From Pacificibacter marinus (GTDB lineage: Bacteria > Pseudomonadota > Alphaproteobacteria > Rhodobacterales > Rhodobacteraceae): 41,916 bases of DNA. The translations under genes were made by a program, and so were the position numbers. The stretch is taken from the NCBI RefSeq assembly GCF_018860505.1, contig NZ_JAHKPU010000007.1, forward strand, positions 1 through 41,916, written 5' to 3'. Below, one piece after another: positions 8,004 to 24,595 of this stretch; the first letter of the stretch is position 1; each line of letters begins with the position of its first letter. Under the pieces are notes generated by a model. The model did not search any database. It saw only the letters and a program-made list of their open reading frames with translations, and was not told the DNA's origin.

Positions 8004-9623
8004 TCAGCTTGCCAAATGCTCAAACAGCCGTGCAACAGCTTCTGCACCTGGGTCGATATGCCCATCGAGTTGCTCGGCGTTGATGTAACTCGCGCGCCCA
8101 GCCTTTGCAGACGTCAGGGTCGCGGTAAATTGCGCTCCTTTGCGTGCAGCAGCTGCCGCGGAAGCTAGCCCTTCAGGCAAGGCGTTCAGCGCAGGCAACA
8201 AAGCATCGACCATGGTCCGATCACCAGGGTTAGCACCACCAATCTGACGCATGCGATCAAGCCCCGCGATCAAGGCGTCGCGCATTGCCAAGCCTGACGA
8301 TGACGCGTCCCCCGCAGCAGCAAAGAAAATCGCAAGCAGTACGCCAGAGGAGCCCCCCATTGTCTGGCTCAACTCCAGCCCAATCGCACGATAAAGCTGT
8401 GTTTGATCTGCCAGTGGCAACGTATCCATGGCCCCGATCAATGCACGAGCTGCCCCAGCTAATGTGGAGCCTGTATCACCGTCACCGGATTTCGCATCAA
8501 GCAGATTCAGGTCTGCCTCGGCTGCGATCAAGACTTCACAGCATGCAATCAAAAACGCTTTGGTAGGTGCGTGCACAGATGCTGGCGCGCGGATCGGCGT
8601 CAAACCGTCGGGCAACGGTAGCACCTTGCACGTTTGTACCGCCCGACATCCGGGCCATGACAAAACGCCAACGGGTTGGGTCAGAAACCCCTCGTCTCCG
8701 TCTGCCAGTTCGCAAACGGAAATCGAAAATCCATGCATATCCAAAGCTGTCATCATCACACTTGGGCCGACGACCAATTTGATATGTTGGCCAAAATCAG
8801 ACTTCAAAAGGCTGTCAGTCAATATCGCCATTTCCAAACAAGACGCGCCACCGAGGTTGTTGATTAAAACGACATGGGGCGTCTTTGGCATGCCAGCACT
8901 GAGCTTTTCAGTCATCTTTTTAATCGCGTCGGTTGCCCCCGCAGCAGCAACTTGTTCAACACCTGCTTCACCGTGAATGCCCAAACCCAGCTCGGCCATT
9001 CCTGTTGGGATGCGGTCTTCTTTTAGTGACCCCGGAACAGAGCAGGTATCAAGCGACAACCCAATGCTGCGTGTTGTTTTGATGATGCGCTCGGCAGCGA
9101 TTGTGCAGGCCTCAAGATTGGCCCCGCTCGCCGCCATTGCACCCGCGATTTTATGCACGAACAAGGTTCCTGCAAGGCCACGTGCTTGCGGTAGATCTGG
9201 CAGTGCGATGTCATCGTCAACGATCACAACCCGAACCTTATGGCCAAAGGCGCGTGCGCGTTCGGCTGCAAGGCCAAAATTCAAACGGTCACCGGTGTAA
9301 TTTTTAACGATCAGCAAGCATCCTGCGGGCCCCGTAACAGCCAAGATTGCGGCCAAAACCGCATCGACAGATGGGGATGCAAATACCTCGCCGCAGACTG
9401 CAGCCGTAAGCATACCCTCGCCTACAAAACCGGCATGTGCAGGTTCATGGCCAGAACCGCCACCAGACACCAATGCGACCTGTGATTTATCCCAATCCGC
9501 GCGCACCACAACACGAATATGCGGGTAACCATCAAGCCGAGTGAGTTTTCCACCTGATGCAGCAATCGTTCCGTCAATCGCTTCAGTGACCATGTCTTGT
9601 TTTGCATTGATAAACTGTTTCAT
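8004..9623 (-). CDS. dhaKL: Fused dihydroxyacetone kinase (DhaK-DhaL), ATP-dependent
   Basis: This 539-residue enzyme phosphorylates dihydroxyacetone (or a related ketose such as erythrulose) to the phosphate ester in the cytoplasm. Residues 1-330 are the DhaK substrate domain: SGGGSGHEPAHAG (54-66), KNYTGDRLNFG (107-117) and the substrate-binding histidine His217 in LGIHGEAG. Residues 355-535 are the DhaL nucleotide domain, with LLDAKSGDGDTGSTL (Asp376, Asp381, Asp383 for Mg-ATP) and TMGGSSGVLL. The fusion indicates the ATP-using type, not the PTS-dependent type. It is the last gene of the transporter operon, 9 bp after the second ATPase gene. It is the operon's only enzyme, and no dehydrogenase, isomerase or aldolase accompanies it. 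Length matches fused kinases of the family. Confidence 0.9.
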   Translation of the reverse strand: MKQFINAKQDMVTEAIDGTIAASGGKLTRLDGYPHIRVVVRADWDKSQVALVSGGGSGHEPAHAGFVGEGMLTAAVCGEVFASPSVDAVLAAILAVTGPAGCLLIVKNYTGDRLNFGLAAERARAFGHKVRVVIVDDDIALPDLPQARGLAGTLFVHKIAGAMAASGANLEACTIAAERIIKTTRSIGLSLDTCSVPGSLKEDRIPTGMAELGLGIHGEAGVEQVAAAGATDAIKKMTEKLSAGMPKTPHVVLINNLGGASCLEMAILTDSLLKSDFGQHIKLVVGPSVMMTALDMHGFSISVCELADGDEGFLTQPVGVLSWPGCRAVQTCKVLPLPDGLTPIRAPASVHAPTKAFLIACCEVLIAAEADLNLLDAKSGDGDTGSTLAGAARALIGAMDTLPLADQTQLYRAIGLELSQTMGGSSGVLLAIFFAAAGDASSSGLAMRDALIAGLDRMRQIGGANPGDRTMVDALLPALNALPEGLASAAAAARKGAQFTATLTSAKAGRASYINAEQLDGHIDPGAEAVARLFEHLAS

Positions 9624-9632
9624 GATTTTTTC

Positions 9633-10628
9633 CTACGATACACGGGCGCCAGAGGCGTCAAAATAGAACGGGTTTTCAGGGCGAATCTGAATAATTTCGC
9701 CCTCTTTAAGGGTGGTATGAGCGTCGGTCACAGTAATCAGATCATGCGATTTGAATGACAAATGCAGGCGTGTCTGATCCCCCAGATGTTCGACGCGCCG
9801 CACGAAACTATCCTCGCCTTCGCCTTGGAAAATCTGCTCGGGGCGCAGGCCAATATGTGTCGCTTTGTTTGGCGCTCCCCCAAAGACGTCTGATGGCAAA
9901 ACATTGATGCGCGGCTGACCAAGACGGCTGGCGGCATAAATACTTACCGGATTTTCATAAATCTCACGCGGGCTCCCAAATTGCACCAGCTTGCCTTCGT
10001 CAAGCACGCCCACATGGGTCGCCATAGTCATTGCTTCGGTCTGATCATGTGTCACATATAACATCGTGGCCCCTGAATCCGCTTGAATGCTCTTGAGTTC
10101 GATCCGCAAATCAGATCGCAATTTTGCATCCAGTGAACTGAGCGGCTCATCCATCAAATATAAAGATGGATCGCGCACTAACGCTCGCCCTATCGACACC
10201 CGCTGCATTTCACCACCCGACAAGGCTGTCGCTTTGTTATCAAGTTTATGGCTGATCTGCAGCACCTCAGCGACAGCGTTCACCTTGCGCTCAATCTCGG
10301 CTTGCGGAGTTTGCAAGATTGGAGATTTAAGCGGAAACTCAAGATTTTGGCGCACCGTGAAATGCGGATAAAGCGAGTATTGCTGAAACACCATCGCCAC
10401 GTCACGTTGAGCGGGTGTATAGGATGCCACATCACGGCCACCAATTGTAACGGTCCCTGTATCTGGCCTATCCAGCCCTGACACCATACGCAGCGTTGTG
10501 GTTTTTCCCGCACCGGTTGGGCCAAGCAAGACCACAAATGCGCCGTCAGGAATGGTCATCGTTACGTCATCAAGAGCCACCTGATCGCCGTATGACTTTG
10601 ATATCCCGCTTAATGTCACTTCAGCCAT
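9633..10628 (-). CDS. ABC transporter ATP-binding protein (second ATPase)
   Basis: The 331-residue protein has Walker A GPTGAGKTTT, signature LSGGEMQRVSIGRAL, Walker B LYLMDEPLSSLDAKL and a switch histidine in YVTHDQTEAMT. The C-terminal 100 residues form a TOBE/OB-type regulatory domain, as in the MalK/UgpC group. It energises uptake through the two permeases encoded upstream. It overlaps the preceding ATPase gene by 8 bp, so the two are translationally coupled. Systems with two different CUT1 ATPases, like the rhizobial glycerol transporter GlpST, probably use them as a heterodimer. The alanine in place of cysteine or serine in Walker A is tolerated. Confidence 0.9.
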   Translation of the reverse strand: MAEVTLSGISKSYGDQVALDDVTMTIPDGAFVVLLGPTGAGKTTTLRMVSGLDRPDTGTVTIGGRDVASYTPAQRDVAMVFQQYSLYPHFTVRQNLEFPLKSPILQTPQAEIERKVNAVAEVLQISHKLDNKATALSGGEMQRVSIGRALVRDPSLYLMDEPLSSLDAKLRSDLRIELKSIQADSGATMLYVTHDQTEAMTMATHVGVLDEGKLVQFGSPREIYENPVSIYAASRLGQPRINVLPSDVFGGAPNKATHIGLRPEQIFQGEGEDSFVRRVEHLGDQTRLHLSFKSHDLITVTDAHTTLKEGEIIQIRPENPFYFDASGARVS

Positions 10629-11718
10629 AATTCAGCACTCCTTCGTTGGCTTGGCTGCGCAGCGCGACACCAGTATCAGCGTCGAACAATGTGATCGTAC
10701 GTGGATCAAATGACAGGCCAGTTTGATCACCGACACGCACTTTGTCCGCGCTTCCGACACGGGCTTTAATATCGCCATTGGCTGTTTCCAGCGTCACGAT
10801 CTGGGTTGTGCCGAGGTACTCTGTCGCCTTGACCCGTCCTCGATATTTGGCAGTGTCGTCCAGTCGCACATGCTCTGGGCGCACGCCAAGCGACATCGCG
10901 CCGTTTGTCCCTTCAATACTTGTCGGAACCGACAACGGAATATCATTCAAGCGCACCTCATTGCCCCCCGATCCGATCATGCCGTTGAAATCGAGAAAGT
11001 TCATCGCCGGCGAGCCCAAGAACTGAGCAACGAACTTGGTGGCAGGCCAATCATAGATATCTTGCGGCACACCGAATTGCTCAACAACACCGTGGTTCAT
11101 GACCACGATTTTGTCGCCCATTTGCATGGCCTCAAGCTGATCGTGGGTCACATACACCGTGGTCGCATTCATACGGTCATGCAGGGCGCGCAGCTCCTCG
11201 GACATATGTTCACGGAATTCCGCGTCGAGCGCCCCCAGCGGCTCATCCATGAAAAACGCCTTGGGATCACGTACAATCGCGCGGCCAAGCGCCACACGTT
11301 GACGGTCGCCGCCAGACAAGCCCCCCACAGGCGTGTTCAAGATATCGGTGATACCAAGAATTTCAGCAATCTCGCCCACCTTCTTCGTGACTTCGGCCTT
11401 GGACAATCCCTGACAGCGCAGCGGATAGCTTATGTTTTTGCCCACATTCATATGCGGGTAAAGCGCAAACATTTGGAACACAAAGGCGATATCGCGCTGT
11501 GACGCGGGCTTTTGCCCCACTTCTTCGCCGTCGATATAAATCTCGCCTGATGTAGGCAATTCAAGCCCTGCCATCATCCGCAGCGTTGTGGTCTTGCCGC
11601 AGCCCGATGGGCCAAGCAGCATAAAGAATTCGCCGTCTTCAATCGTGAACGTAGAAGATTTCACCGCGTTGAACGACCCAAAATCCTTGCGCACATTTTC
11701 AATACGTATTTGTGCCAT
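10621..11718 (-). CDS. ABC transporter ATP-binding protein (first ATPase)
   Basis: The 365-residue CUT1-type ATPase has Walker A GPSGCGKTTT, Q-loop FVFQMFALYPHM, Walker B AFFMDEPLGALDAEF, switch YVTHDQLEAM and a C-terminal TOBE domain with the SLGVRPEHVRLDD motif. The signature reads LSGGDRQRVALGRAI, with Asp where Gln is usual. It lies 2 bp after the small membrane protein and overlaps the second ATPase gene by 8 bp. It powers import of the substrate handed over by the binding protein at 13915-15249. The partner ATPase differs in sequence, so a heterodimeric motor is likely. Confidence 0.9.
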   Translation of the reverse strand: MAQIRIENVRKDFGSFNAVKSSTFTIEDGEFFMLLGPSGCGKTTTLRMMAGLELPTSGEIYIDGEEVGQKPASQRDIAFVFQMFALYPHMNVGKNISYPLRCQGLSKAEVTKKVGEIAEILGITDILNTPVGGLSGGDRQRVALGRAIVRDPKAFFMDEPLGALDAEFREHMSEELRALHDRMNATTVYVTHDQLEAMQMGDKIVVMNHGVVEQFGVPQDIYDWPATKFVAQFLGSPAMNFLDFNGMIGSGGNEVRLNDIPLSVPTSIEGTNGAMSLGVRPEHVRLDDTAKYRGRVKATEYLGTTQIVTLETANGDIKARVGSADKVRVGDQTGLSFDPRTITLFDADTGVALRSQANEGVLNYG

Positions 11719-11720
11719 GA

Positions 11721-11909
11721 TTACTCCGAAAAATGGCTAACGATGATGAACATCACCGTGCCAACAAGGGTGACAATAAAGGAATAGCTGTAAAGCCCGA
11801 TGGCAAAGGGCTGCATCAACATGAACACCCCCACCGCAATCAGGATGGTCGCTAGCATTTCCCATGGACCACGGCGAAACCGTAGCAGTCCTTTGATGAT
11901 ATTGATCAT
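11721..11909 (-). CDS. Small two-helix membrane protein of the ABC operon
   Basis: This 62-residue protein starts MINIIKGLLRFRRGPWEM and has two hydrophobic segments, about residues 18-33 and 38-58, joined by a short turn. Its ATG overlaps the stop of the upstream permease by 4 bp (ATGA), and the first ATPase gene follows 2 bp later, so it is embedded in the translation chain. A small membrane protein is also found between permease and ATPase genes in some alphaproteobacterial CUT1 systems of the glycerol type. It may stabilise or regulate the permease complex, but this is inference. A longer frame upstream to 12131 only shadows the permease gene. Confidence 0.8.
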   Translation of the reverse strand: MINIIKGLLRFRRGPWEMLATILIAVGVFMLMQPFAIGLYSYSFIVTLVGTVMFIIVSHFSE

Positions 11910-12844
11910 TTCCGTACCGCTCCGAATGTGATCCCGCGCAACAAGTGTTTGCGTAACAAGATGGTGAAAACCATGACTGGCACGAGGAAGATCGTTGCAC
12001 CTGCTGCAACAGCAGGCCAATCTTTGCCGCTGACACCGATGATTGTTGGGATGAAAGGCGGGGCCGTTTGTGCCGTGCCAGACGTCAGCAGAACGGCAAA
12101 GGCGTATTCGTTCCACGCAAAGATCAAACAAAAAATGGCCGTTGACGCGATGCCCGTGGCAGCTTGTGGCAACACAACTTTATAGAAGGCTTGGAACCGT
12201 GTGTAGCCGTCGATCAATGCAGCCTCTTCGTACTCAATCGGGATTTCATCGATGAAGCCCTTGAGCAACCAGACAGACAGCGACAGGTTCACCGCCGTGT
12301 ATAGTAAGATCATACCAAGGTGCGTGTCATTTAGCCCCAAGTTACGGAACATCAAAAAGATCGGGATCGCCACGGCAATCGGCGGCATCATCCGTGTCGA
12401 TAGAATAAAGAACAATAGATCGTCCTTAAGCGGCACTTTAAATCGGCTAAAGGCATAAGCGGCCATCGTGCCCAAGATCATACACAAAAGCGTTGATCCA
12501 AATCCGATGATAACCGAGTTAAGGAACCGCTCGCCGTAGCGTGAGGGGCCAGAAATGATCGTGCCACGTTCGCGCACAATTTCATCGTACCAAGTATCAG
12601 CCGGACCTGCGGCCTCAAGCATTTCTGGGGTGGCTCTAGTGCGTTCGGTGAACAGGTTCACATAACCTTCGACGCTTGGTTCGAACAATACGACGGGTGG
12701 ATAGGCAATGGAATCCGCAGGGGATTTAAACCCTGTCGCGATGATCCAAAGCAGCGGAACCAACGTAATGCAAGCATAGCTGATCACCAAAAATCCGGCG
12801 ATCCATTTGGTGCCCTTTGCGGGCTCTGTGACGGAAAAACTCAT
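11906..12844 (-). CDS. Carbohydrate ABC transporter permease (MalG-like)
   Basis: The 312-residue inner-membrane protein has six predicted helices and the permease EAA loop, EYEEAALIDGYTRFQAFYKV, which docks the ATPase. It ends near LLRKHLLRGITFGAVRK, a typical MalG-group C-terminus. I chose the ATG at 12844 (MSFSVTEPAK), which overlaps the previous permease's stop by 4 bp. An in-frame ATG at 12946 would add 34 residues that only shadow the upstream gene. It pairs with the permease at 12841-13788 to form the translocation channel. Confidence 0.9.
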   Translation of the reverse strand: MSFSVTEPAKGTKWIAGFLVISYACITLVPLLWIIATGFKSPADSIAYPPVVLFEPSVEGYVNLFTERTRATPEMLEAAGPADTWYDEIVRERGTIISGPSRYGERFLNSVIIGFGSTLLCMILGTMAAYAFSRFKVPLKDDLLFFILSTRMMPPIAVAIPIFLMFRNLGLNDTHLGMILLYTAVNLSLSVWLLKGFIDEIPIEYEEAALIDGYTRFQAFYKVVLPQAATGIASTAIFCLIFAWNEYAFAVLLTSGTAQTAPPFIPTIIGVSGKDWPAVAAGATIFLVPVMVFTILLRKHLLRGITFGAVRK

Positions 12845-13788
12845 CTCTCTTTTACCTTGTTCAGGGCCTTGACGTAAATCGAAGCAAGGCCAAAGACGGT
12901 CACGAAAAGGATCACTGCGTAAGCGGATGAATATCCGGTGCGCCACTTTTCAAAGGCCTCTCGTTTCAGATCAATCGAGGTCAGGGTTGTCGTGTTCCCC
13001 GGCCCTCCGCCTGTGAGTTGGACAACCAGATCGAACATCTTGAAGTTCTCGATGCCACGGAACAACACAGCCAACATCAAAAACGGTAGTGCCATAGGAA
13101 TGGTCAGCGTCCAGAACTGGCGCCATTTGCTGGCGCGATCACATTCAGCCGCCTCGTAAATGCTATCGGGAATAGACCTAAGGCCCGCCAGACAGATCAG
13201 CATCACAAATGGTGTCCACATCCATGTGTCCGCAATCACAATCGCCCAAGGGGCCAAATGCACATCGCCAATCATTGAAAAACTGGCTGGGTCAGCACCA
13301 GTGAAAAACGCGACAACATAGTTAAACAGACCAATTTGCGGCTGATACAGAAACGTCCAAAAGTTGCCGACAACCGCAGGTGACAACATCATTGGAAAGA
13401 CGATGATCGTCGTCCACATGTCATTGCCACGGAATTTTTTGTTGATCAAAAAGGCGAGCGCGAAACCGATCAGGACCTGTAAAGCGATCGTCCAGATCAA
13501 AAAATGTGCCGTTGCCTGCATTGTGTTCCAAACGTCAGGATCACTTAGGATGCGTTTATAATTGGACAAACCAACCCAATCCACATCCTTGTTCGGGCGG
13601 TTCACACGAAAATTGGTAAAGCTCAACCGAATGGTCCAGATCAACGGAAAGATATTGACTGCAAGCAATAAGAAAATCGTAGGGGCCACGAAAATCCACG
13701 CGATTGTTCGGTCTGACAATCCGCGAATGCGTTTGGCCATTCCGACAGGCGTCTTCGCGGCCGCTGTATCCATAGGGGAAAGGGGCAT
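12841..13788 (-). CDS. Carbohydrate ABC transporter permease (MalF-like)
   Basis: The 315-residue protein has six hydrophobic helices (first near residues 29-50), the EAA loop IYEAAECDRASKWRQF and the segment TGGGPGNTTTLTSIDL, common in the MalF/UgpA group. It follows the binding-protein gene across a 126-bp gap that contains a hairpin, and its stop overlaps the next permease's start. It forms the inner-membrane channel with that protein. The start ATG at 13788 gives a normal length. Confidence 0.9.
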   Translation of the reverse strand: MPLSPMDTAAAKTPVGMAKRIRGLSDRTIAWIFVAPTIFLLLAVNIFPLIWTIRLSFTNFRVNRPNKDVDWVGLSNYKRILSDPDVWNTMQATAHFLIWTIALQVLIGFALAFLINKKFRGNDMWTTIIVFPMMLSPAVVGNFWTFLYQPQIGLFNYVVAFFTGADPASFSMIGDVHLAPWAIVIADTWMWTPFVMLICLAGLRSIPDSIYEAAECDRASKWRQFWTLTIPMALPFLMLAVLFRGIENFKMFDLVVQLTGGGPGNTTTLTSIDLKREAFEKWRTGYSSAYAVILFVTVFGLASIYVKALNKVKER

Positions 13789-13841
13789 TGTTTATGTGTC
13801 CTTGCCGGCGACTTAAGTCGCACACTTCGATAATGGGTGCC

Positions 13842-13865
13842 CCAGCCAATCCGTGGATCAGCTGG
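13842..13865 (-). promoter_or_regulatory. Intercistronic hairpin between binding-protein and permease genes
   Basis: On the minus strand, CCAGCUGAUC and GAUUGGCUGG pair over 10 bp (two are G-U) around the loop CACG. No U-tract follows. Such hairpins after binding-protein genes commonly protect the upstream mRNA from 3' decay, so more binding protein than permease is made. Confidence 0.55.
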
Positions 13866-13914
13866 TGCGATTACCTGACACCTCCTCTGGAAAGGTATCC
13901 GACTGGGATGGGTG

Positions 13915-15249
13915 TTAGAGCTTGCCTTCGTCCTCGAACACTTCGGTCCAATCGCGGACCAAACCATCGAGGGCTTCTTTGGCAGTGCCTTCGCCCGCAA
14001 TGACGTAGTTGTGCATACGCTCTTGAGTGGCGATCAACAGATCGGCATAAGCCGGTTCAGCCCAGAAATCTTTGACGATTGCCATACTATCAAGGAAAGC
14101 TTGTGCGTATGGTTGGCTTGCCGCGAAATCATCCGCCTCAACAACCGCACGAAGTGCTGGCGCTCCGCCAAGGTTCCACCATTGCTGTTGCACTTCAGGC
14201 TGCGCAAACCACTTGATGTACTCCAAAGCCGCATCCTGCTTATCAGAATAGGAAACAACAGAGATACCTTGTCCGCCAAGCTGTGCAAATTGACCCGCTG
14301 GGCCAGCAGGGTTCGGGAAATAACCCGTATTGCCGCCACCCACAGTTTCATCGGCTTCAACTCCTGGCCAGATGAAAGCAAAATTCATCTGCAGTGCAAC
14401 CTGCCCAGACCGGTAGGCGTCGATATTTTCGCTCATGTACCAATTCGAGGAACCAGGAGGTGTGCCGATGTCATACAGCTCTTTGTAAAGCTCAAGACCA
14501 GCAACCGCACCTTCAGAGTTTACAAACCCTTCTAAGTCGTAAGGCTTGTCCGGATTTTCGTACTGGAAACCGTAGTTATACAGCGCGTTCGTGACGCCCA
14601 TCGTGACGCCTTCGGACCCACGTTCTGTATAGATCGCAGCGCCGTAAACAGTGGTGCCATCGATGTCGCGACCTTGAAAGAATTCGGCAATATCCTTGAG
14701 CTCTTCGAGGGATGCGGGCACGTCCAGCTTGCGGCCATAAGTGTCCATAAACTCGGTCTGAAGTTCCGGACGCTCAAACCAATCCTTGCGATATGTCCAG
14801 CCGACCACGTCTGCAAATGCTGGCAGCGCATAATAGTTTGGCGTATTCTTTGGCCATTCCGAATACCCCGTCACGGTCGCCGGCAAAAAATCGTCCATTG
14901 TAATGCCGTTGGCATCAAAGAAATCGTTCAGCTTGACGTAGTGGCCGTTTTCGGCGCCGCCACCGATCCACTGGCTATCGCCAATCATCAGATCGCAAAG
15001 TTGTCCACTAGAATTGAGCTCATTCAACATACGGTCAGCAAAGCTCGTCCATGGCACGAACTCAAAACTCATGGTGTGGCCGGATTGCAGTTCAAAATCT
15101 TTGGACAGTTCAATTAACGAATTTGCAGGATCCCAGGCCGCCCAGCACAAAGTCAGGTCTGTGGCATGTGCTTCTACCGCAGCTGTTGTCGCAATCACGG
15201 ATGCGACAATGGCACCCGTAGCCCCCCTAGTGAATAGGTTCTTTTTCAT
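13915..15249 (-). CDS. Carbohydrate ABC transporter substrate-binding protein
   Basis: This 444-residue periplasmic protein of the CUT1 type has a signal sequence, MKKNLFTRGATGAIVASVIA, with likely cleavage after AHA near residue 29. The mature part starts TDLTLCWAAWDPANSL and contains LCDLMIGDSQWIGGGAENG and YKELYDIGTPPGSSNW, blocks of the extracellular solute-binding family 1. The ATG at 15249 follows a strong GGGAGGA. It is the first gene of the operon, divergent from the LacI regulator, so the shared 15250-15480 region controls it. The ligand is not identifiable; the kinase downstream suggests dihydroxyacetone or another short ketose or polyol. Confidence 0.9.
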   Translation of the reverse strand: MKKNLFTRGATGAIVASVIATTAAVEAHATDLTLCWAAWDPANSLIELSKDFELQSGHTMSFEFVPWTSFADRMLNELNSSGQLCDLMIGDSQWIGGGAENGHYVKLNDFFDANGITMDDFLPATVTGYSEWPKNTPNYYALPAFADVVGWTYRKDWFERPELQTEFMDTYGRKLDVPASLEELKDIAEFFQGRDIDGTTVYGAAIYTERGSEGVTMGVTNALYNYGFQYENPDKPYDLEGFVNSEGAVAGLELYKELYDIGTPPGSSNWYMSENIDAYRSGQVALQMNFAFIWPGVEADETVGGGNTGYFPNPAGPAGQFAQLGGQGISVVSYSDKQDAALEYIKWFAQPEVQQQWWNLGGAPALRAVVEADDFAASQPYAQAFLDSMAIVKDFWAEPAYADLLIATQERMHNYVIAGEGTAKEALDGLVRDWTEVFEDEGKL

Positions 15250-15319
15250 TGATTTATTCCTCCCGATTTTAGCGGACGCAGCTCCCCGCCACGACTCACG
15301 CTATGCTTATATTGCTAAA

Positions 15320-15335
15320 TGATGCACGTGCCTCA
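15320..15335. promoter_or_regulatory. Palindromic operator 1 (LacI-type)
   Basis: TGATGCACGTGCCTCA is a near-perfect 16-bp palindrome centred on CACGTG, the CG-centred form typical of LacI-family operators. A second copy lies 30 bp away, about three helical turns. Both are between the binding-protein gene and the LacI gene. Confidence 0.7.
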
Positions 15336-15349
15336 TGGCAACAATTATT

Positions 15350-15365
15350 TGACGCACGTGCCTCA
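15350..15365. promoter_or_regulatory. Palindromic operator 2 (LacI-type)
   Basis: TGACGCACGTGCCTCA matches operator 1 at 15 of 16 positions. A weaker related sequence, TGATGCAGTTGTGGCA, is at 15411-15426 and could be a third, degenerate site near the regulator start. Confidence 0.7.
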
Positions 15366-15480
15366 ATGCGTAACCATATCGAGATGAAATCTAACATTTC
15401 TGCTTGTAAATGATGCAGTTGTGGCACAACAAAGGTCTGATAAGATGGCGAAATTCGTAGAAACGACAGTCAGAGAAATA

Positions 15481-16503
15481 ATGCTAAGACCAACAACCAA
15501 AGATCTGGCACAAGCTGCGGGCGTCAGTCGCGCAACCGTCGATCGCGTGCTCAACGGACGAGATGGTGTCAGAAAAGACACCGTGGACCGCGTCAATCAA
15601 GCCATTAAAGACCTCGGCTTTGTGCGTAACATCCAAGCCGCCAACCTTGCGAAATCGCAGCGCTATAGGTTTGTCTTTGCTTTGCCGCGCTCTGGCGATT
15701 TATTTCTCGAAGAAATTATTCGGCACATCGACGAAGCCAGTGAAAATTTTGCTGCCGATCTAATTGTATGTGACGTGGCGCATATCGACGAAAATGATCC
15801 ACATAGCATTTCTTCATTTCTTGCAACGCTGGACCCCGTTGATACGACTGGTGTCGCGATCATGGCGCCAGAGTCCCCTCAAGTCCGTGATGCTATTTTC
15901 AGACTACAAGAACGTGGTATCGCGGCCCTTCCGTTTATTGCGGACCAGTCAAGCATGGCGGAACACTGGGTAGGTACAAATCATAACGCTGCTGGCGCAA
16001 CCGCTGCCAACCTTATCGGGCGATTTTGCCAGAAAACTCAAGGATCAGTGCTGGTCATTTCCGAAAGTATGCGCTCGCGCGATAGTCTGGAGCGACGCAT
16101 CGGGTTCGACACCGAACTTAACAAAAATTTCGGTTTTCTACAGGCACTTCCGTCCCTCGAAACCTACGGCGATGAAGACCGCGCCCAAACAATTATTACA
16201 AATGCGGTCCAAAACAACGCCAACCTTGTCGGCATTTACATCATGTCTTCAGAGGCCCGCGTGCCGTTACAAATTCTGAATGATCTGGGTCAAACAACCA
16301 ACCTTATTAAAATAGCCCACGAACGCACCCCCTATACCGAAAACGCCCTAAAAACCTTCAAGATCGACGCCGTTATCGCGCAAGACCCAGGACATCTTGT
16401 CAGAAGTGCCATTCGCAAACTGAAAGCTATCAAAGACAAAAGAGTAGCAATTGGGTCGCAGGAACGTATCAGGATTGAGGTACTACTACGCACAAATATT
16501 TGA
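15481..16503 (+). CDS. LacI family transcriptional regulator
   Basis: The N-terminal 45 residues are a LacI helix-turn-helix, TTKDLAQAAGVSRATVDRVL, followed by the hinge-helix region around VRNIQAANLAKSQRY. The rest is a periplasmic-binding-protein-like effector domain, with the sugar-binding type pattern from about residue 45. I took the ATG at 15481 (MLRPTTKDL, 340 residues), which puts the helix-turn-helix at the usual distance from the start. In-frame alternatives are an ATG at 15445 and a GTG at 15421; the GTG would overlap a possible operator. It is divergent from the ABC/kinase operon and very probably represses it until substrate or its phosphate binds. It may also control itself through the same operators. 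Confidence 0.85.
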   Translation: MLRPTTKDLAQAAGVSRATVDRVLNGRDGVRKDTVDRVNQAIKDLGFVRNIQAANLAKSQRYRFVFALPRSGDLFLEEIIRHIDEASENFAADLIVCDVAHIDENDPHSISSFLATLDPVDTTGVAIMAPESPQVRDAIFRLQERGIAALPFIADQSSMAEHWVGTNHNAAGATAANLIGRFCQKTQGSVLVISESMRSRDSLERRIGFDTELNKNFGFLQALPSLETYGDEDRAQTIITNAVQNNANLVGIYIMSSEARVPLQILNDLGQTTNLIKIAHERTPYTENALKTFKIDAVIAQDPGHLVRSAIRKLKAIKDKRVAIGSQERIRIEVLLRTNI

Positions 16504-19002: not shown

Positions 19003-19716
19003 TTACCCAAAAGGATATAAATCAAGAAAATAGACCATTGCCGGAACGGGAGCCACCGCGATGGCCAAAGTCAGCGCCGTAGGTTTTGTGGCATAAAGCC
19101 CGCTGAAACCTGCAATCAAAGCCAGCCCCCCTCCTCCACCGATAAGCGCATTTCCCGGAAGGTTCAAAAGCAGACCTAAGACAACGTATTTATATCGGAT
19201 CACCGCAGCTGGAACCCATTTCGGCAGCCGTGCCTGCAAAAAATTCTGCCGTTGTTCTCCAGTCAGTGGTGTAATTTCATCGATGAGATCACTCACGCCG
19301 GTCAAACGTAGGTCCATCGCAACCTGCTTGAACACAGCGCAATCAACCCGACGCCCCACAAAATAGGCCAACGACAGACCGAATAACGTTCCGCTATAGA
19401 CGAACGGTGCAAGAGCCCCGCCCTCGAGCATCATCAGAGAAATTCCGATTTCAGCCCCCGGGACAAAGGGAACGGCCATCAGTAAAACATAGACCAGCAA
19501 AAGAGCGCCAAGCACCCCAATGCGCACTCCGGCGGCGTTTTCCAAGTCGTCGATCTTCATCATCAACCAGCCAACAGCCAGATGGGTCAGCCAGATCAAT
19601 AAGGCAAAGATGGCAATACGCAGGACTATTCGGAAAATTGGACGCCCATCGCGCCGTTGTGCACGGTCAATCTTGCCCAAGGGACGCCCCTTTGCAACGA
19701 TCCAGCGTATGAGCAT
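19003..19716 (-). CDS. VTT/TVP38-TMEM64-like membrane protein (YdjX/YdjZ type)
   Basis: The 237-residue inner-membrane protein has five or six hydrophobic segments (about residues 28-50, 68-85, 100-118, 170-190, 196-230). The VTT (DedA/SNARE-associated) pattern is suggested by AVPFVPGAEIGISLMMLEGG and LPGNALIGGGGGLALIAG. Such proteins are thought to move lipids across membranes. In Escherichia coli, ydjX and ydjZ of this family sit in the same gene cluster as ynjABCDEF; here it lies beside ynjFBCD but on the opposite strand. That conserved closeness supports the assignment. The start codon lacks a clear Shine-Dalgarno, so the N-terminus is uncertain. Confidence 0.7.
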   Translation of the reverse strand: MLIRWIVAKGRPLGKIDRAQRRDGRPIFRIVLRIAIFALLIWLTHLAVGWLMMKIDDLENAAGVRIGVLGALLLVYVLLMAVPFVPGAEIGISLMMLEGGALAPFVYSGTLFGLSLAYFVGRRVDCAVFKQVAMDLRLTGVSDLIDEITPLTGEQRQNFLQARLPKWVPAAVIRYKYVVLGLLLNLPGNALIGGGGGLALIAGFSGLYATKPTALTLAIAVAPVPAMVYFLDLYPFG

Positions 19717-20268
19717 ACCGCACTGCGGATACAGAGCATAACGACCTTTGAAAGATAGCGGGATGTTGTATTTGCATTTAAAAACTCCTGCCCAACAGAT
19801 TGGACCTCAAATCGCATATGTGCCAGACATTTGTGTGCGACATCGCGTGAAGGTGAACAGCACAGAAGTTTTCACAAAGCTGCGTTTACAAAAAACTGTA
19901 ACAATGTGACAGCTCACACGCCCTAACGAGACTGACATTAACGGCATAATGGCAAAAGGCATAAAAGCTGCGTTTCAGTCTGTGCCATATAGGGTTTTAC
20001 CCACACGATTTTGACCTGTCACACCGGTTCCCGATTGTGAAATCCAAGCCGAATGGACATTTTGGGGTCAAGAAGTGACCTTGGCGCCTTTAGAACAGGT
20101 GAAGCATCCCCTCTATCAACACACACACAAATGAGGCGGATATGATGACAAATTCGTCAACTCGCGCATCATCGGTATCTTTGACACCTGTATTTATGCA
20201 AAACAGCACATTTATGCGAGACTGTCCAAAACCTATACACTTCTGCGCCCAATGAAACGGATCATAAA
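19717..20268. other. Divergent intergenic region upstream of the ynj operon
   Basis: This 552-bp stretch lacks a convincing gene. AAAGCTGCGTTT occurs twice (19876-19887 and 19964-19975), 88 bp apart, and may mark regulator sites. A 37-codon frame at 20142-20255 has GAGGCGGAT before its ATG but no family features, and is not called as a gene. Confidence 0.45.
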
Positions 20269-20385
20269 ATGGCAAAACTCGAAAACAGTTTTCTGACCCG
20301 ATTGGAAACGGTGGCCCTATTCGTGGTTTTGATCGGAACCGTGGCAATGCAGCCCGCATTCATTAGGGAAAACGAACATGTTTGA
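20269..20385 (+). CDS. Possible 38-aa membrane peptide before ynjF
   Basis: A frame starting MAKLENSFLTRLETVALFVV encodes one hydrophobic helix (about residues 14-31) and ends 8 bp inside ynjF, the same kind of overlap as in the rest of this operon. The Shine-Dalgarno is weak. It may be a small accessory subunit or simply a leader frame that couples translation to ynjF. Confidence is low. Confidence 0.35.
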   Translation: MAKLENSFLTRLETVALFVVLIGTVAMQPAFIRENEHV

Positions 20386-21064
20386 TGCAAGAATTCAGCC
20401 GCTGCAAAAACGTTTGCTTGACCGGCCAGCCACTTGGCTTGTCACACGGGGCATAGGCGCAGACCAGATCACCATTGCCGGTTTTGCCATCGGCCTTCTA
20501 GCCGTGCCAGCAATTGCCTTTGGCATCTATTGGGCGGGTTTGCTTTTTCTTATCGTAAACCGTCTCGCGGATGGGCTTGACGGGGCAGTCGCACGGATCT
20601 CTGGCCCAACAGATCGAGGGGCCTTTCTTGATATCGCATTGGACTTTGTATTTTACGCCGTATTCCCGTTGGGGTTTGCCATTGCAAACCCTGCGAACGC
20701 TTTGCCTGCTGCCGTTTTGATCGCTGCCTTTGTTGGCACGGGATCGTCGTTTTTGGCATTTGCGGCTATCGCGGCCAAGCGCGGCGACACCGCCGACGCT
20801 TTCCCAACCAAAGGCATCTATTATCTTGGCGGCTTGACTGAAGGCTTCGAGACGATCGCTCTTTTTATCCTGATGCTGCTTTGGCCCTCGCTGTTTCCAT
20901 TGCTCGCCTATCTTTTCTCGGCGGCCTGTGCGCTCACCACCCTCTTGCGCTGGTCACATGGTTGGACCGCCTTCGCATCAATCGACATGAAGGAACAAAA
21001 ACCGCAAGATAGCAACGATACACAACCGCAGTCTCAATCAGCTTCAACACAGGACGTCTCATGA
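20378..21064 (+). CDS. ynjF: CDP-alcohol phosphatidyltransferase family protein YnjF
   Basis: The 228-residue membrane enzyme carries the CDP-alcohol phosphotransferase motif as DGLDGAVARISGPTDRG followed by AFLDIALDF, with all metal-binding aspartates. The Ala-Arg to Gly gap is one residue shorter than in PgsA. The later block FVGTGSSFLAFAAIAAK and KGIYYLGGLTEGFETI closely resemble E. coli YnjF as I recall it. It is expected to transfer a CDP-linked diacylglycerol or similar group onto an alcohol; the substrate is unknown. It starts at ATG 20378 after AGGGA and overlaps ynjB by 4 bp. Its coupling to an ABC importer hints that the imported solute could be the acceptor alcohol. Confidence 0.88.
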   Translation: MFDARIQPLQKRLLDRPATWLVTRGIGADQITIAGFAIGLLAVPAIAFGIYWAGLLFLIVNRLADGLDGAVARISGPTDRGAFLDIALDFVFYAVFPLGFAIANPANALPAAVLIAAFVGTGSSFLAFAAIAAKRGDTADAFPTKGIYYLGGLTEGFETIALFILMLLWPSLFPLLAYLFSAACALTTLLRWSHGWTAFASIDMKEQKPQDSNDTQPQSQSASTQDVS

Positions 21065-22245
21065 AACATCTTCTCATCGCCGCGCTCGCATTTTCGTTTG
21101 GCACACCTGCACTGGCCGATTGGCAGCAAACGCTTGATGAGGCGCGTGGCCAGACCGTGTATTGGAATGCTTGGGGCGGCGATGAGCGCACCAATGCGTT
21201 TATCGCTTGGGTCAGTGATCAAACTAAAGCGCAATATGGCGTGACAATAGAACAAGTGAAGCTGTCAAACACAGCCGAAGCCGTAACGCGCGTGATTTCT
21301 GAAAAGGCCGCGGGCCGCGATCAGGATGGTACGATCGATATGATATGGATCAACGGGCCGAATTTTCTTGCGATGAAGGAACAGGGGTTGCTGCATGGCC
21401 CCTTCGTCACAGGCTTGCCAAATGCGCAGTATCTTGACCTAAGCCCGACGTCGGCAGCCTCAATCGATTTTACCGTGCCCGTTGAAGGTATGGAAAGCCC
21501 GTGGCGATTGGCCAAGTTCGTTTTTACCTATGACAGTGCCCGCGTTTCTGCCGTGCCGCGCACCATGGCTGATTTCGTCAGCTGGGCCGCAGATCACCCC
21601 GGCGGTTTCACTCATCCGGTCCCATCGAACTTTATGGGGGCGACCTTTCTAAAACAGGCGTTGATCGAGCTGGCACCCGATGCGTCGGTGTTGCAAACTC
21701 CAGTTAATGATGCCGCCTACAGCGTGACGACAGCGCCGCTTTGGGACTGGTATGAGGCGCTCCGCCCCAATATGTGGCGAGACGGCAAAACATTCCCTGA
21801 AAACGAGTCTATCCAGCAACAAATGTTAAACGATGGCGTGGTGGATATTTCTATGTCACTTGATCCCGCCTCAACCGCTGCGGCAATCGCCCAAGGGCTT
21901 TTGCCAGAAACCGCCCGTGTTTTCGTGCCCGAAGACGGCAGCATCGGCAACATCAGCTTCGTCGCTATCCCCTATAACGCGGCGCATGCGGCAGGTGCCG
22001 AAGTCGTTGCAAACTTCCTCATCGCACCTGAGACCCAAGCGCATATGCAAAACATTGATGTATTGGGATCGTTCTCAGTTTTGGACCCATCCAAACTTGA
22101 TGCCCCTGCCCTCGCGACATTTGCGGCACTCCCAGCCTCTGATGCGCTTCCCACACTTGAAAGTCTGGGGGCGACGCTTTTGGAACCTCATGCCAGTTGG
22201 ATGACCCGACTGACAGAAGACTGGGCACGGCGCTATACGAAATGA
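21061..22245 (+). CDS. ynjB: ABC transporter substrate-binding protein YnjB
   Basis: The 394-residue periplasmic binding protein has a signal peptide (MKHLLIAALAFSFGTPALA) and mature start DWQQTLDEARGQTVYWNAWG. The YnjB pattern includes YWNAWGGDERTNAFIAW, DGTIDMIWINGPNFLAMK and NFMGATFLKQALIEL. The family resembles thiamine- or polyamine-type binding proteins, but its ligand is not known to me. It overlaps ynjF and ynjC by ATGA junctions, so all four genes are translated together. It delivers ligand to the YnjC channel. Confidence 0.88.
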   Translation: MKHLLIAALAFSFGTPALADWQQTLDEARGQTVYWNAWGGDERTNAFIAWVSDQTKAQYGVTIEQVKLSNTAEAVTRVISEKAAGRDQDGTIDMIWINGPNFLAMKEQGLLHGPFVTGLPNAQYLDLSPTSAASIDFTVPVEGMESPWRLAKFVFTYDSARVSAVPRTMADFVSWAADHPGGFTHPVPSNFMGATFLKQALIELAPDASVLQTPVNDAAYSVTTAPLWDWYEALRPNMWRDGKTFPENESIQQQMLNDGVVDISMSLDPASTAAAIAQGLLPETARVFVPEDGSIGNISFVAIPYNAAHAAGAEVVANFLIAPETQAHMQNIDVLGSFSVLDPSKLDAPALATFAALPASDALPTLESLGATLLEPHASWMTRLTEDWARRYTK

Positions 22246-23948
22246 ACACTGACGGCCGTTATCTACGCTTAACCGTCCTGAGCATTGTTGGTTTCGGCCT
22301 AATGTTACCGATTGTTCTCGGGTTTTGGCAAACAGGGCGCGCAGCCTTTGGCCTGTTTCCCGCTTTGGGGCGGGATACGCTATCGCTTGCGCCATGGCGC
22401 GAATTGGTAACGCTTCCGGGCTTTGGCACCAGCTTAAAACTAACGCTCGTGACGGGCATTGGCGCCACTGTATTTTCGCTCTTGCTGGCCACCGGATTTT
22501 GCGCGGCGGTTCATTCGCGGATCACACCAGGGGCCGGAGCCCGCATGCTCACACCGTTCCTTGCCATCCCGCATGCGGCCCTGGCCGTTGGATTGGCCTT
22601 TGTTCTTGCCCCGTCTGGCTGGATCGCCAGAGGGCTTGCCCCCTTTGTCGGATGGGATCGTCCCCCTGATTTAGCGACAGTAAACGATACATGGGGTCTG
22701 GCCCTGATCGTTGGTTTGATGATCAAAGAAGTCCCGTTTTTGCTTCTTGTGATCCTCTCGGCGTTGACCCAAATCCCTGTCGCCAAACATGTGTCGGCCG
22801 GACGCTCACTTGGCTATGGACGCGGCGTTGTCTGGATTAAAATTATAATGCCGCAGGTTTGGCCAATGATACGGCTTCCCGTCTGGGTGGTTCTTGCCTA
22901 TGCGCTCTCGGTCGTTGACGTTGCAATGATCTTAGGTCCGTCCAACCCGCCTACGCTTGCCGTCGCCATCACACGCTGGTTCAATGCCGCCGATCCGGGT
23001 CAGATTATGCCAGCCTCAGCGGGCGCAATCTTGCAGGTCTTAATCATAGCACTCGGCATCGCAGTGTTTGTGTTGGGTGAATGCCTTATGCGCCGCGTTG
23101 GACGTTGGTGGTTACGCCGTGGCGGACGCGGACTTTCGACGGAACCGGGTTTGCAATTGGCCAGCGTTATAACTGTGGTTTTGATGGCAATTGGGATGCT
23201 GGCCATGCTCTCACTCCTGATCTGGTCACTGGCGTGGCGTTGGCCCTTTCCGCAATTTCTGCCGGAAAGTTGGTCTTTGCGATCATGGGTCAACAGCTCA
23301 AACGGATGGCAACGCGCATTAAGCAATACAGTTTTTCTTGCGATAACGACAACGGTGCTGTCGGTTGCTCTGGCGATTGCATGGCTCGAAGGCGAGGACC
23401 GTGCGCGACGGGGACGTGCGGCATGGGCAGAAGCCTTAATATATCTTCCACTTGTGATCCCACAGGTCGGGTTTCTCTACGGACTTAACATCGCATTTTT
23501 GAAAATTGGCATATCGGGCGATATGACTGCCGTGATCTGGGCACAGGCACTCTTTGTCTTTCCTTATGTGATGATTGCATTGTCAGATCCTTGGCGCGCC
23601 CTTAACCGCCGCACCTTGGACAGCGCAGCCTCCCTTGGAGCTGGACCATTAAAACGGCTGGTGAAGATTAAATTACCCATATTGTTGCGTCCGATCCTCA
23701 CCGCGACCGCCATAGGCGTGGCGGTTTCCGTAGCTCAATATTTACCAACCCTCTTTATGGGTGCGGGCCGCATCGCGACACTCACCACAGAAGCTGTCAC
23801 CCTGTCGTCTGGCTCTGACCGGCGCGTCACTGGGGTCTATGCTGCATTGCAAACAATGCTCCCATTGGTGGCCTATTTAGCCGCATTTTTGATACCCGCT
23901 TTCCTACACCGCAACCGCCGCGACCTGAACGGAACCATACAAACATGA
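22242..23948 (+). CDS. ynjC: ABC transporter permease YnjC (double-length)
   Basis: The 568-residue inner-membrane protein has about twelve helices made of two fused permease halves, so one chain can form the channel. Each half has an EAA-like loop: SAGRSLGYGRGVVWIKIIMP and LDSAASLGAGPLKRLVKIKL. The start is ATG 22242 (MNTDGRYLRL), overlapping ynjB's stop by 4 bp; an ATG at 22197 would only read through ynjB. The build matches E. coli YnjC and the ThiP/FbpB group. Confidence 0.88.
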   Translation: MNTDGRYLRLTVLSIVGFGLMLPIVLGFWQTGRAAFGLFPALGRDTLSLAPWRELVTLPGFGTSLKLTLVTGIGATVFSLLLATGFCAAVHSRITPGAGARMLTPFLAIPHAALAVGLAFVLAPSGWIARGLAPFVGWDRPPDLATVNDTWGLALIVGLMIKEVPFLLLVILSALTQIPVAKHVSAGRSLGYGRGVVWIKIIMPQVWPMIRLPVWVVLAYALSVVDVAMILGPSNPPTLAVAITRWFNAADPGQIMPASAGAILQVLIIALGIAVFVLGECLMRRVGRWWLRRGGRGLSTEPGLQLASVITVVLMAIGMLAMLSLLIWSLAWRWPFPQFLPESWSLRSWVNSSNGWQRALSNTVFLAITTTVLSVALAIAWLEGEDRARRGRAAWAEALIYLPLVIPQVGFLYGLNIAFLKIGISGDMTAVIWAQALFVFPYVMIALSDPWRALNRRTLDSAASLGAGPLKRLVKIKLPILLRPILTATAIGVAVSVAQYLPTLFMGAGRIATLTTEAVTLSSGSDRRVTGVYAALQTMLPLVAYLAAFLIPAFLHRNRRDLNGTIQT

Positions 23949-24595
23949 GTCTTGATCTAACCTCCCTTACGTTGCGAAGCCCAAGCGGGGAACTGCTATT
24001 CGCGCCTCTAACGCTCAGCGTGCCACTGGGCGATGTCGTAACTGTGATGGGGCCGTCCGGCGTCGGAAAATCGACACTCTTAGATGCGATTGGCGGTCAT
24101 CTGACACATGGTTTCGGGTGTTCAGGTTCGATTAAACTCAACGGGCGGGAAATAAGCACGATACCAGCAGAAACCCGTCAGGTCGGCGTGATGTTTCAAG
24201 ACGCCCACTTGTTTCCGCATCTCAGTGTCGGAGACAACCTCGCATTCGGATTGCCTTCACATATCAAAGGGCGCGCAATGCGGCGCAGCACGGTTGAGGC
24301 AGCTCTAAAGCAAGCGGGCCTAGCCGGTCGTTACGATGATGATTCAGCAGCGCTATCGGGGGGGCAGCGCGCACGCGCAGCACTTATGCGCACCTTATTG
24401 GCCGAACCTGAAGCGGTTTTGCTCGATGAGCCATTTTCCAAACTTGATTCAAGCCTACGTGACGAAATACGGCATTTTACATTCTCGCACATTGCAGCAC
24501 GCGGCATACCTGCGCTCATGGTCACACATGACGAAGCGGATGCTCATGTTACAAGAGGACGTTGCATTGCTTTAAAAAAGCCTGAGAGTGATTGA
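23945..24595 (+). CDS. ynjD: ABC transporter ATP-binding protein YnjD
   Basis: The 216-residue ATPase has Walker A GPSGVGKSTLLDAIGG, Q-loop VGVMFQDAHLFPHLS, signature LSGGQRARAALMRTLLAEP, Walker B AVLLDEPFSKLDSSL and switch VTHDEADAH. It lacks a C-terminal regulatory domain, as does YnjD. It overlaps ynjC by 4 bp and ends the operon. E. coli's neighbouring rhodanese gene ynjE is absent here. Confidence 0.9.
   Translation: MSLDLTSLTLRSPSGELLFAPLTLSVPLGDVVTVMGPSGVGKSTLLDAIGGHLTHGFGCSGSIKLNGREISTIPAETRQVGVMFQDAHLFPHLSVGDNLAFGLPSHIKGRAMRRSTVEAALKQAGLAGRYDDDSAALSGGQRARAALMRTLLAEPEAVLLDEPFSKLDSSLRDEIRHFTFSHIAARGIPALMVTHDEADAHVTRGRCIALKKPESD

Follow-up and report, generated by a model that had tools for sequence, protein, structure and literature searches.

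The stretch of DNA analysed here, 41,916 nucleotides of Pacificibacter marinus (contig NZ_JAHKPU010000007.1, positions 1 to 41,916; the window hereafter), carries four joined genes, ynjF, ynjB, ynjC and ynjD, and raises the question why an ATP-binding cassette (ABC) importer, YnjBCD, is coupled to YnjF, a class I cytidine diphosphate (CDP)-alcohol phosphotransferase. Comparison with relatives gives good support to the importer and the transferase forming one functional unit. As to what the unit does, our best explanation, to which we assign a probability of roughly 0.4, is that the cargo of the importer serves YnjF as acceptor in making a lipid.

The ynjFBCD genes and their co-occurrence

All four genes lie on the forward strand and, by comparison, are intact. 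ynjF (20378..21064) encodes a protein of 228 amino acids that scores 30.1 bits with Pfam CDP-OH_P_transf (cut-off 22), and a search of the whole genome found this one copy only. ynjB (21061..22245) encodes a solute-binding protein of 394 amino acids, with an N-terminus that by eye resembles a signal peptide; it matches NCBIfam PRK11622 (YnjB) with 462 bits against a cut-off of 203, and SBP_bac_8 with 60.8 against 27. The permease gene ynjC (22242..23948; 568 amino acids) contains two permease halves by profile, although its BPD_transp_1 score barely clears the Pfam cut-off (26.7 versus 26.4), and ynjD (23945..24595) encodes the ATPase (216 amino acids; ABC_tran 100.6 bits, cut-off 25). Identities to the Escherichia coli counterparts are 48% for YnjF, 39% for YnjB, 31% for YnjC and 49% for YnjD. 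The three junctions are all ATGA overlaps. Coordinates and domain scores agree with an earlier note on this DNA, which had described four overlapping genes with ynjF first. The absence of the rhodanese gene ynjE, claimed there too, was confirmed by tblastn: neither E. coli YnjE nor YnjA, YdjX, YdjY or YdjZ had a match in the window up to E 0.01.

To see how regularly importer and transferase accompany each other we used two samples, which overlap in some genomes: 295 genomes of the family, which carry 294 genus codes (YnjB from 500 bits up, YnjF at E up to 1e-20), and 249 genomes of the phylum (YnjB at E up to 1e-60, YnjF at E up to 1e-25). In the family YnjB was present in 89 genomes, YnjF in 122 and both in 85; YnjF thus accompanied 85/89 YnjB genomes and 37/206 of the others. 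The phylum sample held YnjB in 23 genomes, YnjF in 28 and both in 22, that is, YnjF in 22/23 YnjB genomes and in 6/226 others (Fisher p 5e-25, uncorrected for ancestry). The 89 leave out 25 of 114 family YnjB genomes that scored below 500 bits, being partial or divergent; in these ynjF was upstream in 2, elsewhere in 14 and missing in 9, and with them included YnjF was found in 101/114 YnjB genomes and in 21/181 others. The association is one-sided, since YnjF occurs without YnjB in 37/122 family and 6/28 phylum genomes.

This companionship outlasts rearrangement, as the earlier note had proposed in saying that gene order changes while content is kept. In 58 of the 85 family genomes ynjF lies close upstream in the same direction, in 11 it is divergent, and in the other 16 it is elsewhere. 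For the 22 phylum genomes the counts are 4 upstream, 10 downstream and co-directional, 2 convergent and 6 elsewhere. G110 and G235 at least (G and L numbers denote genomes and loci) have their ynj genes at contig ends, and 'elsewhere' may there mean a contig break. YnjB in the phylum sample spans 12 family codes, and YnjF was found in all 12. Distances between YnjB sequences also follow those between YnjF sequences (r 0.70 in 63 loci where the two genes are adjacent, the maximum of 200 permutations being 0.18; no species-tree control). Many genomes with ynjBCD and no ynjF would have spoken against a functional unit, and they were few: 4/89 in the family and 1/23 in the phylum (G417, 100% complete). 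The four are G166 (73% complete), G137 (84%), G102 (99%) and G049, which is rated 100% complete but is in 340 contigs with YnjB at a contig end. As YnjB is so rarely without YnjF despite the rearrangements, a shared job is likely.

Acceptor, cargo and proposed mechanism

The earlier note had called YnjF a lipid-headgroup-type transferase, and both the catalytic motif and the predicted fold support this. The eight-residue catalytic signature was kept at seven positions in 33/33 aligned YnjF sequences and at R73 in 32/33, and the model has the membrane fold of class I CDP-alcohol phosphotransferases, resembling that of phosphatidylinositol-phosphate (PIP) synthase. No curated synthase family claims the protein, its NCBIfam scores being 56 bits for archin_ph_syn (cut-off 180) and 34 for PIPSynth (cut-off 170). 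In the PIP synthase RsPIPS, R153 and R191 are proposed to bind the phosphate of the acceptor (PMC4634129). The two arginines of the RxxR motif of PIP synthases align with G156 and T159 of YnjF, both invariant in 33/33 sequences, and because these arginines are missing we favour an acceptor that is unphosphorylated, which on these alignments is likely.

The cargo of the importer is less readily approached. The YnjB model (predicted local distance difference test, pLDDT, 92.1) has a binding-protein fold, whose neighbours by Z score are led by sugar-binding proteins (6dtq, 27.9), followed by STM0429 (27.1), UgpB with glycerophosphocholine (26.7), sulfoquinovose-type binders (26.6 to 25.8) and a ferric-ion binder (25.4). 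Ranked by Foldseek E-value, STM0429 comes first, then ferric-ion, metal-citrate, hexose-phosphate and polyamine binders, while sequence-profile matches in the Protein Data Bank were to polyamine-binding proteins only, at E 6e-4 or weaker. Salmonella STM0429 we take to be PhnS. Reading the cargo from the fold was given up, the neighbours being too mixed (sugars, iron, metal-citrate, sugar phosphates, polyamines and probably aminoethylphosphonate). An amino-alcohol, one of the cargoes suggested in the earlier note, found no specific support, as nothing among these neighbours singles it out. The best NCBIfam profiles of YnjC and YnjD are of the 2-aminoethylphosphonate type and stay below their cut-offs (PhnU 62.9 of 247 bits, PhnV 54.8 of 358.7, PhnT 130.4 of 499.15); for YnjC the PhnU-, PhnV- and ThiP-type profiles all match under their cut-offs.

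From these results we infer three things: YnjBCD imports the acceptor of YnjF, this acceptor is a polyol-like alcohol that carries no phosphate, and YnjF makes a lipid. YnjBCD would bring a small hydroxylated compound into the cell, and YnjF would join this compound, either as it is or in a modified form, to CDP-diacylglycerol. The result would be a phospholipid whose head group is unusual. In relatives, this product would be acted on by a VTT-domain protein, a member of a family of putative phospholipid flippases that is often found as a fusion with a flavin adenine dinucleotide (FAD)-disulfide oxidoreductase. The company that importer and transferase keep through rearrangement, the likely unphosphorylated acceptor, the VTT-oxidoreductase and an alternative transferase set described below turn isolated y-genes into one testable pathway, and if the mechanism is true, they would point to a membrane head group of Pseudomonadota that has gone unrecognised.

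Several points weigh against this reading. The co-occurrence statistics ignore shared ancestry. YnjF does not always need YnjBCD: its presence without YnjB in 37/122 and 6/28 genomes means that it can work with another acceptor source. The ligand of YnjB is not readable from its predicted fold. The argument from the missing arginines is partial, as the arginine of transmembrane helix 6 (TM6; R191 of RsPIPS) is kept as R191 in 32/33 YnjF sequences, with one gap, and the YnjF model is poor (pLDDT under 50) at residues 145-148, near the acceptor site. Finally, the main text of PMC3688515 names ydjXYZ-ynjABCD and ynjE and not ynjF, and the authors of PMC7888660, where they discuss the iModulon that holds the ynj operon, tie it to the use of molybdenum and selenium, not to lipids. 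A literature search that covered few subscription journals found no function or substrate assigned to YnjBCD or YnjF.

Neighbours of the ynj genes in relatives and in the window

In relatives we compared 80 named loci, which are the best matches to the YnjB of the window and not a random set; the 20 loci L198-L217 were picked for a non-adjacent or absent ynjF. Neighbour families are clusters of the neighbouring reading frames in these loci. One protein recurs upstream of ynjF or ynjB. It is about 717 residues long and joins a VTT domain at its N-terminus to a pyridine nucleotide-disulfide oxidoreductase at its C-terminus. A VTT domain was present in 20/80 named and 8/19 phylum YnjB loci (28/99 together), and was fused in 24 of the 28. 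A hidden Markov model (HMM) built from E. coli YdjX and YdjZ and the N-termini of four VTT fusions matched in 0/40 loci with ynjF away from ynjB and in 0/20 loci centred on TIGR04283. The resulting enrichment (28/99 versus 0/60, p 5e-7) counts a match anywhere in a locus, and the comparison loci come from one family and are on average shorter. Matches to the oxidoreductase only were found in 3/40 (L116, L127, L129) and 1/20 (L148) of the comparison loci.

A survey of the family found the fusion or its reductase half above 700 bits at 18 places. Of these, 16 are immediately 5′ of ynjF in the same orientation, two of them in genomes with YnjB elsewhere (G053, G096); of the remaining two places, one adjoins ynjF on the other strand (G174) and one is on another contig (G143). 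Within 7 kb, 20/80 named loci have an FAD-disulfide oxidoreductase and 1/80 has YnjE. In an alignment of the VTT-linked oxidoreductase (A3: L031, L037, L046, L047, L051, L056), CxxxxC is kept (C273 and C278 of L031), but HxYPT stands where lipoamide dehydrogenases have HAHPT. Three loci (L186, L187, L188) also have members of DUF547 and fatty acid hydroxylase families (one member of each identified by Pfam) beside the VTT-oxidoreductase and ynjBCD-ynjF, the hydroxylase gene being directly 3′ of ynjF in L187 and L188. We also observed a single-domain rhodanese gene after ynjD in L015 (10166-10645), a Celeribacter-type genome, with a matching gene in L097, as a ynjE-like partner.

VTT proteins do recur with ynj genes in relatives; a part of the earlier note that did not stand is the VTT-type neighbour beside ynjF in the window. 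That gene (19003..19716, reverse strand) is divergent from ynjF, 661 bp away, and its product belongs to no Pfam or NCBIfam family. A Pfam search up to E 10 gave only DUF5989 at E 6, with VTT_dom not listed, though HMMER filters discard most matches above E of about 0.1. The VTT HMM did not match it, and over the whole genome the VTT alignment found one other gene only (G000:C2:39824-40489). Profile-profile comparison (hhalign) gave a probability of 0.4% (E 0.16), the aligned stretch being the VTT motif region. On this evidence we do not accept the product as a VTT protein and describe it as a predicted membrane-type protein of an unnamed family, so that the ynj operon of the window contains no recognisable VTT gene. 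Two close relatives, G009 and G010, have a relative of the 19003-19716 gene next to ynjF; in the stretches from two others, G005 and G017, none was seen. In L018, L022, L031 and L032 relatives lie about 2 to 6 kb from the ynj genes, and each of these loci contains a gene whose match to C92 peptidases stays below the cut-off.

In other loci ynjB has different partners, here called the second set. They are a kinase-like protein of the APH family and proteins of TIGR04283 and TIGR04282, whose NCBIfam names refer to arsenosugar biosynthesis, or else a radical SAM/SPASM protein. Among 119 loci this set lay within 7 kb of ynjB in 0/62 with ynjF versus 15/57 without (Fisher p 5e-6, uncorrected). For nine of the 12 named second-set loci the genome was searched for ynjF, which six genomes lacked (those of L057, L058, L061, L072, L079 and L091) and three had away from the locus (L054, L060 and L090), against 12/12 with ynjF among comparison genomes that have no second set at the YnjB locus; the 21 genomes were chosen, not random. 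Genomes with YnjB and no YnjF fit in part: G417, the sole such genome in the phylum sample, has a kinase-plus-glycosyltransferase set at ynjBCD, and G102 has a radical SAM gene directly upstream of ynjB, while G166, G137 and G049 showed no member in the stretches examined. The radical SAM family is rare (2/48 hand-picked genomes, G102 and G322). The kinase-like family (A8) had no match among solved structures, a TIGR04282 protein matches the structure of a putative nucleotide-diphospho-sugar transferase (3cgx), and in L193 the VTT-oxidoreductase fusion stands beside the second set too. These distributions suggest that ynjF and the second set do related jobs with the same cargo. A further reading, which follows less surely and which we regard as doubtful, gives YnjBCD the dedicated task of importing a sugar- or polyol-like compound, unphosphorylated and meant for the membrane, to which bacteria would attach it by two chemically alternative routes. 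One would use an activated lipid and a free alcohol (CDP-diacylglycerol and YnjF); the other would activate the alcohol, through the kinase-like protein, the nucleotidyltransferase-like TIGR04282 protein, the TIGR04283 glycosyltransferase and at some loci the radical SAM/SPASM protein.

YnjF and TIGR04283 appear nearly complementary in the family, exactly one being present in 266/295 genomes (one only in 154 and 112, both in 10, neither in 19). This is probably a clade effect, and we rejected it as evidence of replacement: 19/20 genomes of the window's own genus have TIGR04283, including 4/5 with full-length YnjB. Of 20 chosen TIGR04283 loci, 17 have no TIGR04282 neighbour, and many have housekeeping-type surroundings.

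Upstream of ynjF, an open frame of 38 codons (20269-20385, forward strand) ends in a stop codon that overlaps the start of ynjF. G009 and G010 have counterparts that are 71% identical, but L018 carries an insertion of 28 bases in the corresponding stretch. An inverted repeat, TGACAAATTCGTCA, lies at 20146-20159 inside a conserved block, which is kept in L012 and L013 and, with a changed centre, in L018. Its pattern occurs three times in the window against 0.58 expected (3/100 shuffles reach three), and it is possibly an operator. To the right of ynjD are nos-type genes on the reverse strand (NosZ above its cut-off, a NosR-like protein below it, and an ApbE-family protein). Nitrous oxide respiration was dropped as a conserved link, as tblastn of the Nos proteins against the stretches of G009, G010, G005 and G017 gave only ABC-ATPase similarity and no FNR-type site precedes ynjF; riboswitch regulation was dropped after an Rfam scan in which no family reached threshold in the window. 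Farther left, a dihydroxyacetone-kinase-like protein, ABC permease and ATPase genes and a LacI-type regulator (8004-16503) suggest a separate uptake locus.

Competing explanations and known systems

In a first alternative the cluster serves, when oxygen is low, to handle a compound linked to sulfur, selenium or molybdenum; rhodanese and thiol-redox partners would process what YnjBCD imports, and YnjF would attach it at the membrane or adjust the membrane for respiratory enzymes. Its main support is from E. coli, where PMC3688515 describes ynjE as directly activated by FNR, with ydjXYZ-ynjABCD in the same table of the regulon, and where the iModulon that PMC7888660 ties to molybdenum and selenium use unites the ynj operon (printed ynjXYZABCD) with ynjE, yedEF and yjiLM. 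Rhodanese genes recur (E. coli ynjE, L178, L179, L022, L015), as does the FAD-disulfide oxidoreductase. The window, however, has no match to YnjE, YnjA or the oxidoreductase, the named loci have YnjE in 1/80 and the oxidoreductase in 20/80 cases within 7 kb, and one-mismatch FNR-type matches are at chance level (8 versus a mean of 6.07), with none in the gap upstream of ynjF. It also leaves a CDP-alcohol phosphotransferase as constant partner unexplained, and we consider it unlikely.

We judge equally unlikely that importer and transferase have separate substrates and merely serve the same condition, such as an envelope change, the importer scavenging a solute and YnjF building a lipid from an internal alcohol. 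YnjF must have another acceptor source somewhere, as it is often without YnjB, and its surroundings then differ over 40 loci compared; YnjB, however, is rarely without YnjF, and such a dependence in one direction agrees better with a common substrate than with common regulation. That the association comes for the most part from common descent and from neighbouring genes being transferred together horizontally, with no common pathway, is improbable: the importer is patchy in its own genus (full-length YnjB in 5/20 genomes), the counts are not tree-corrected and the exclusion of YnjF and TIGR04283 looks like just such a clade effect, but YnjF is found in all 12 YnjB family codes and persists unlinked in 6/22 phylum and 16/85 family genomes (contig breaks perhaps in at least the two named above), which hitchhiking does not predict.

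The reading of YnjBCD as supplier of the YnjF acceptor can be set beside four known systems. Like the 2-aminoethylphosphonate importers (PhnSTUV, PhnT2/U2), the ynj importer has their profiles as the top matches of YnjC and YnjD and STM0429 as the top Foldseek match of YnjB; unlike them, it scores far under the curated cut-offs, and for YnjB many other binders are nearly equal. Compared with PIP synthases (RsPIPS, MtPgsA1), YnjF has glycine and threonine in place of the RxxR arginines, and in the alignment 7 residues between AR and the next G where MtPgsA1 has 8; measured against PIP and archaetidylinositol phosphate synthases together, it keeps the TM6 arginine and misses the RxxR pair and a curated score. 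The COG0398 subfamily of DedA proteins is described in PMC10127716 as putative phospholipid flippases whose commonest fusion is VTT-oxidoreductase; the recurrent protein upstream of ynjF in relatives is of this fusion type, whereas the window's operon has none and the 19003-19716 protein misses the VTT profiles. The closest system is the E. coli K-12 ydjXYZ-ynjABCDE / ynjF region (COG4134-4136 importer), to which the earlier note had likened the locus as ydjXYZ-ynjABCDEF. The same four proteins are present in both, 31-49% identical, and E. coli too has VTT genes and ynjF near ynjBCD; ydjXYZ, ynjA and ynjE are unmatched in the window. The likeness does not extend to the arrangement: E. coli has ynjF on the other strand at the far end, convergent with ynjE and not co-directional with ynjBCD, whereas in the window it comes first, co-directional and joined to the importer genes by ATGA overlaps.

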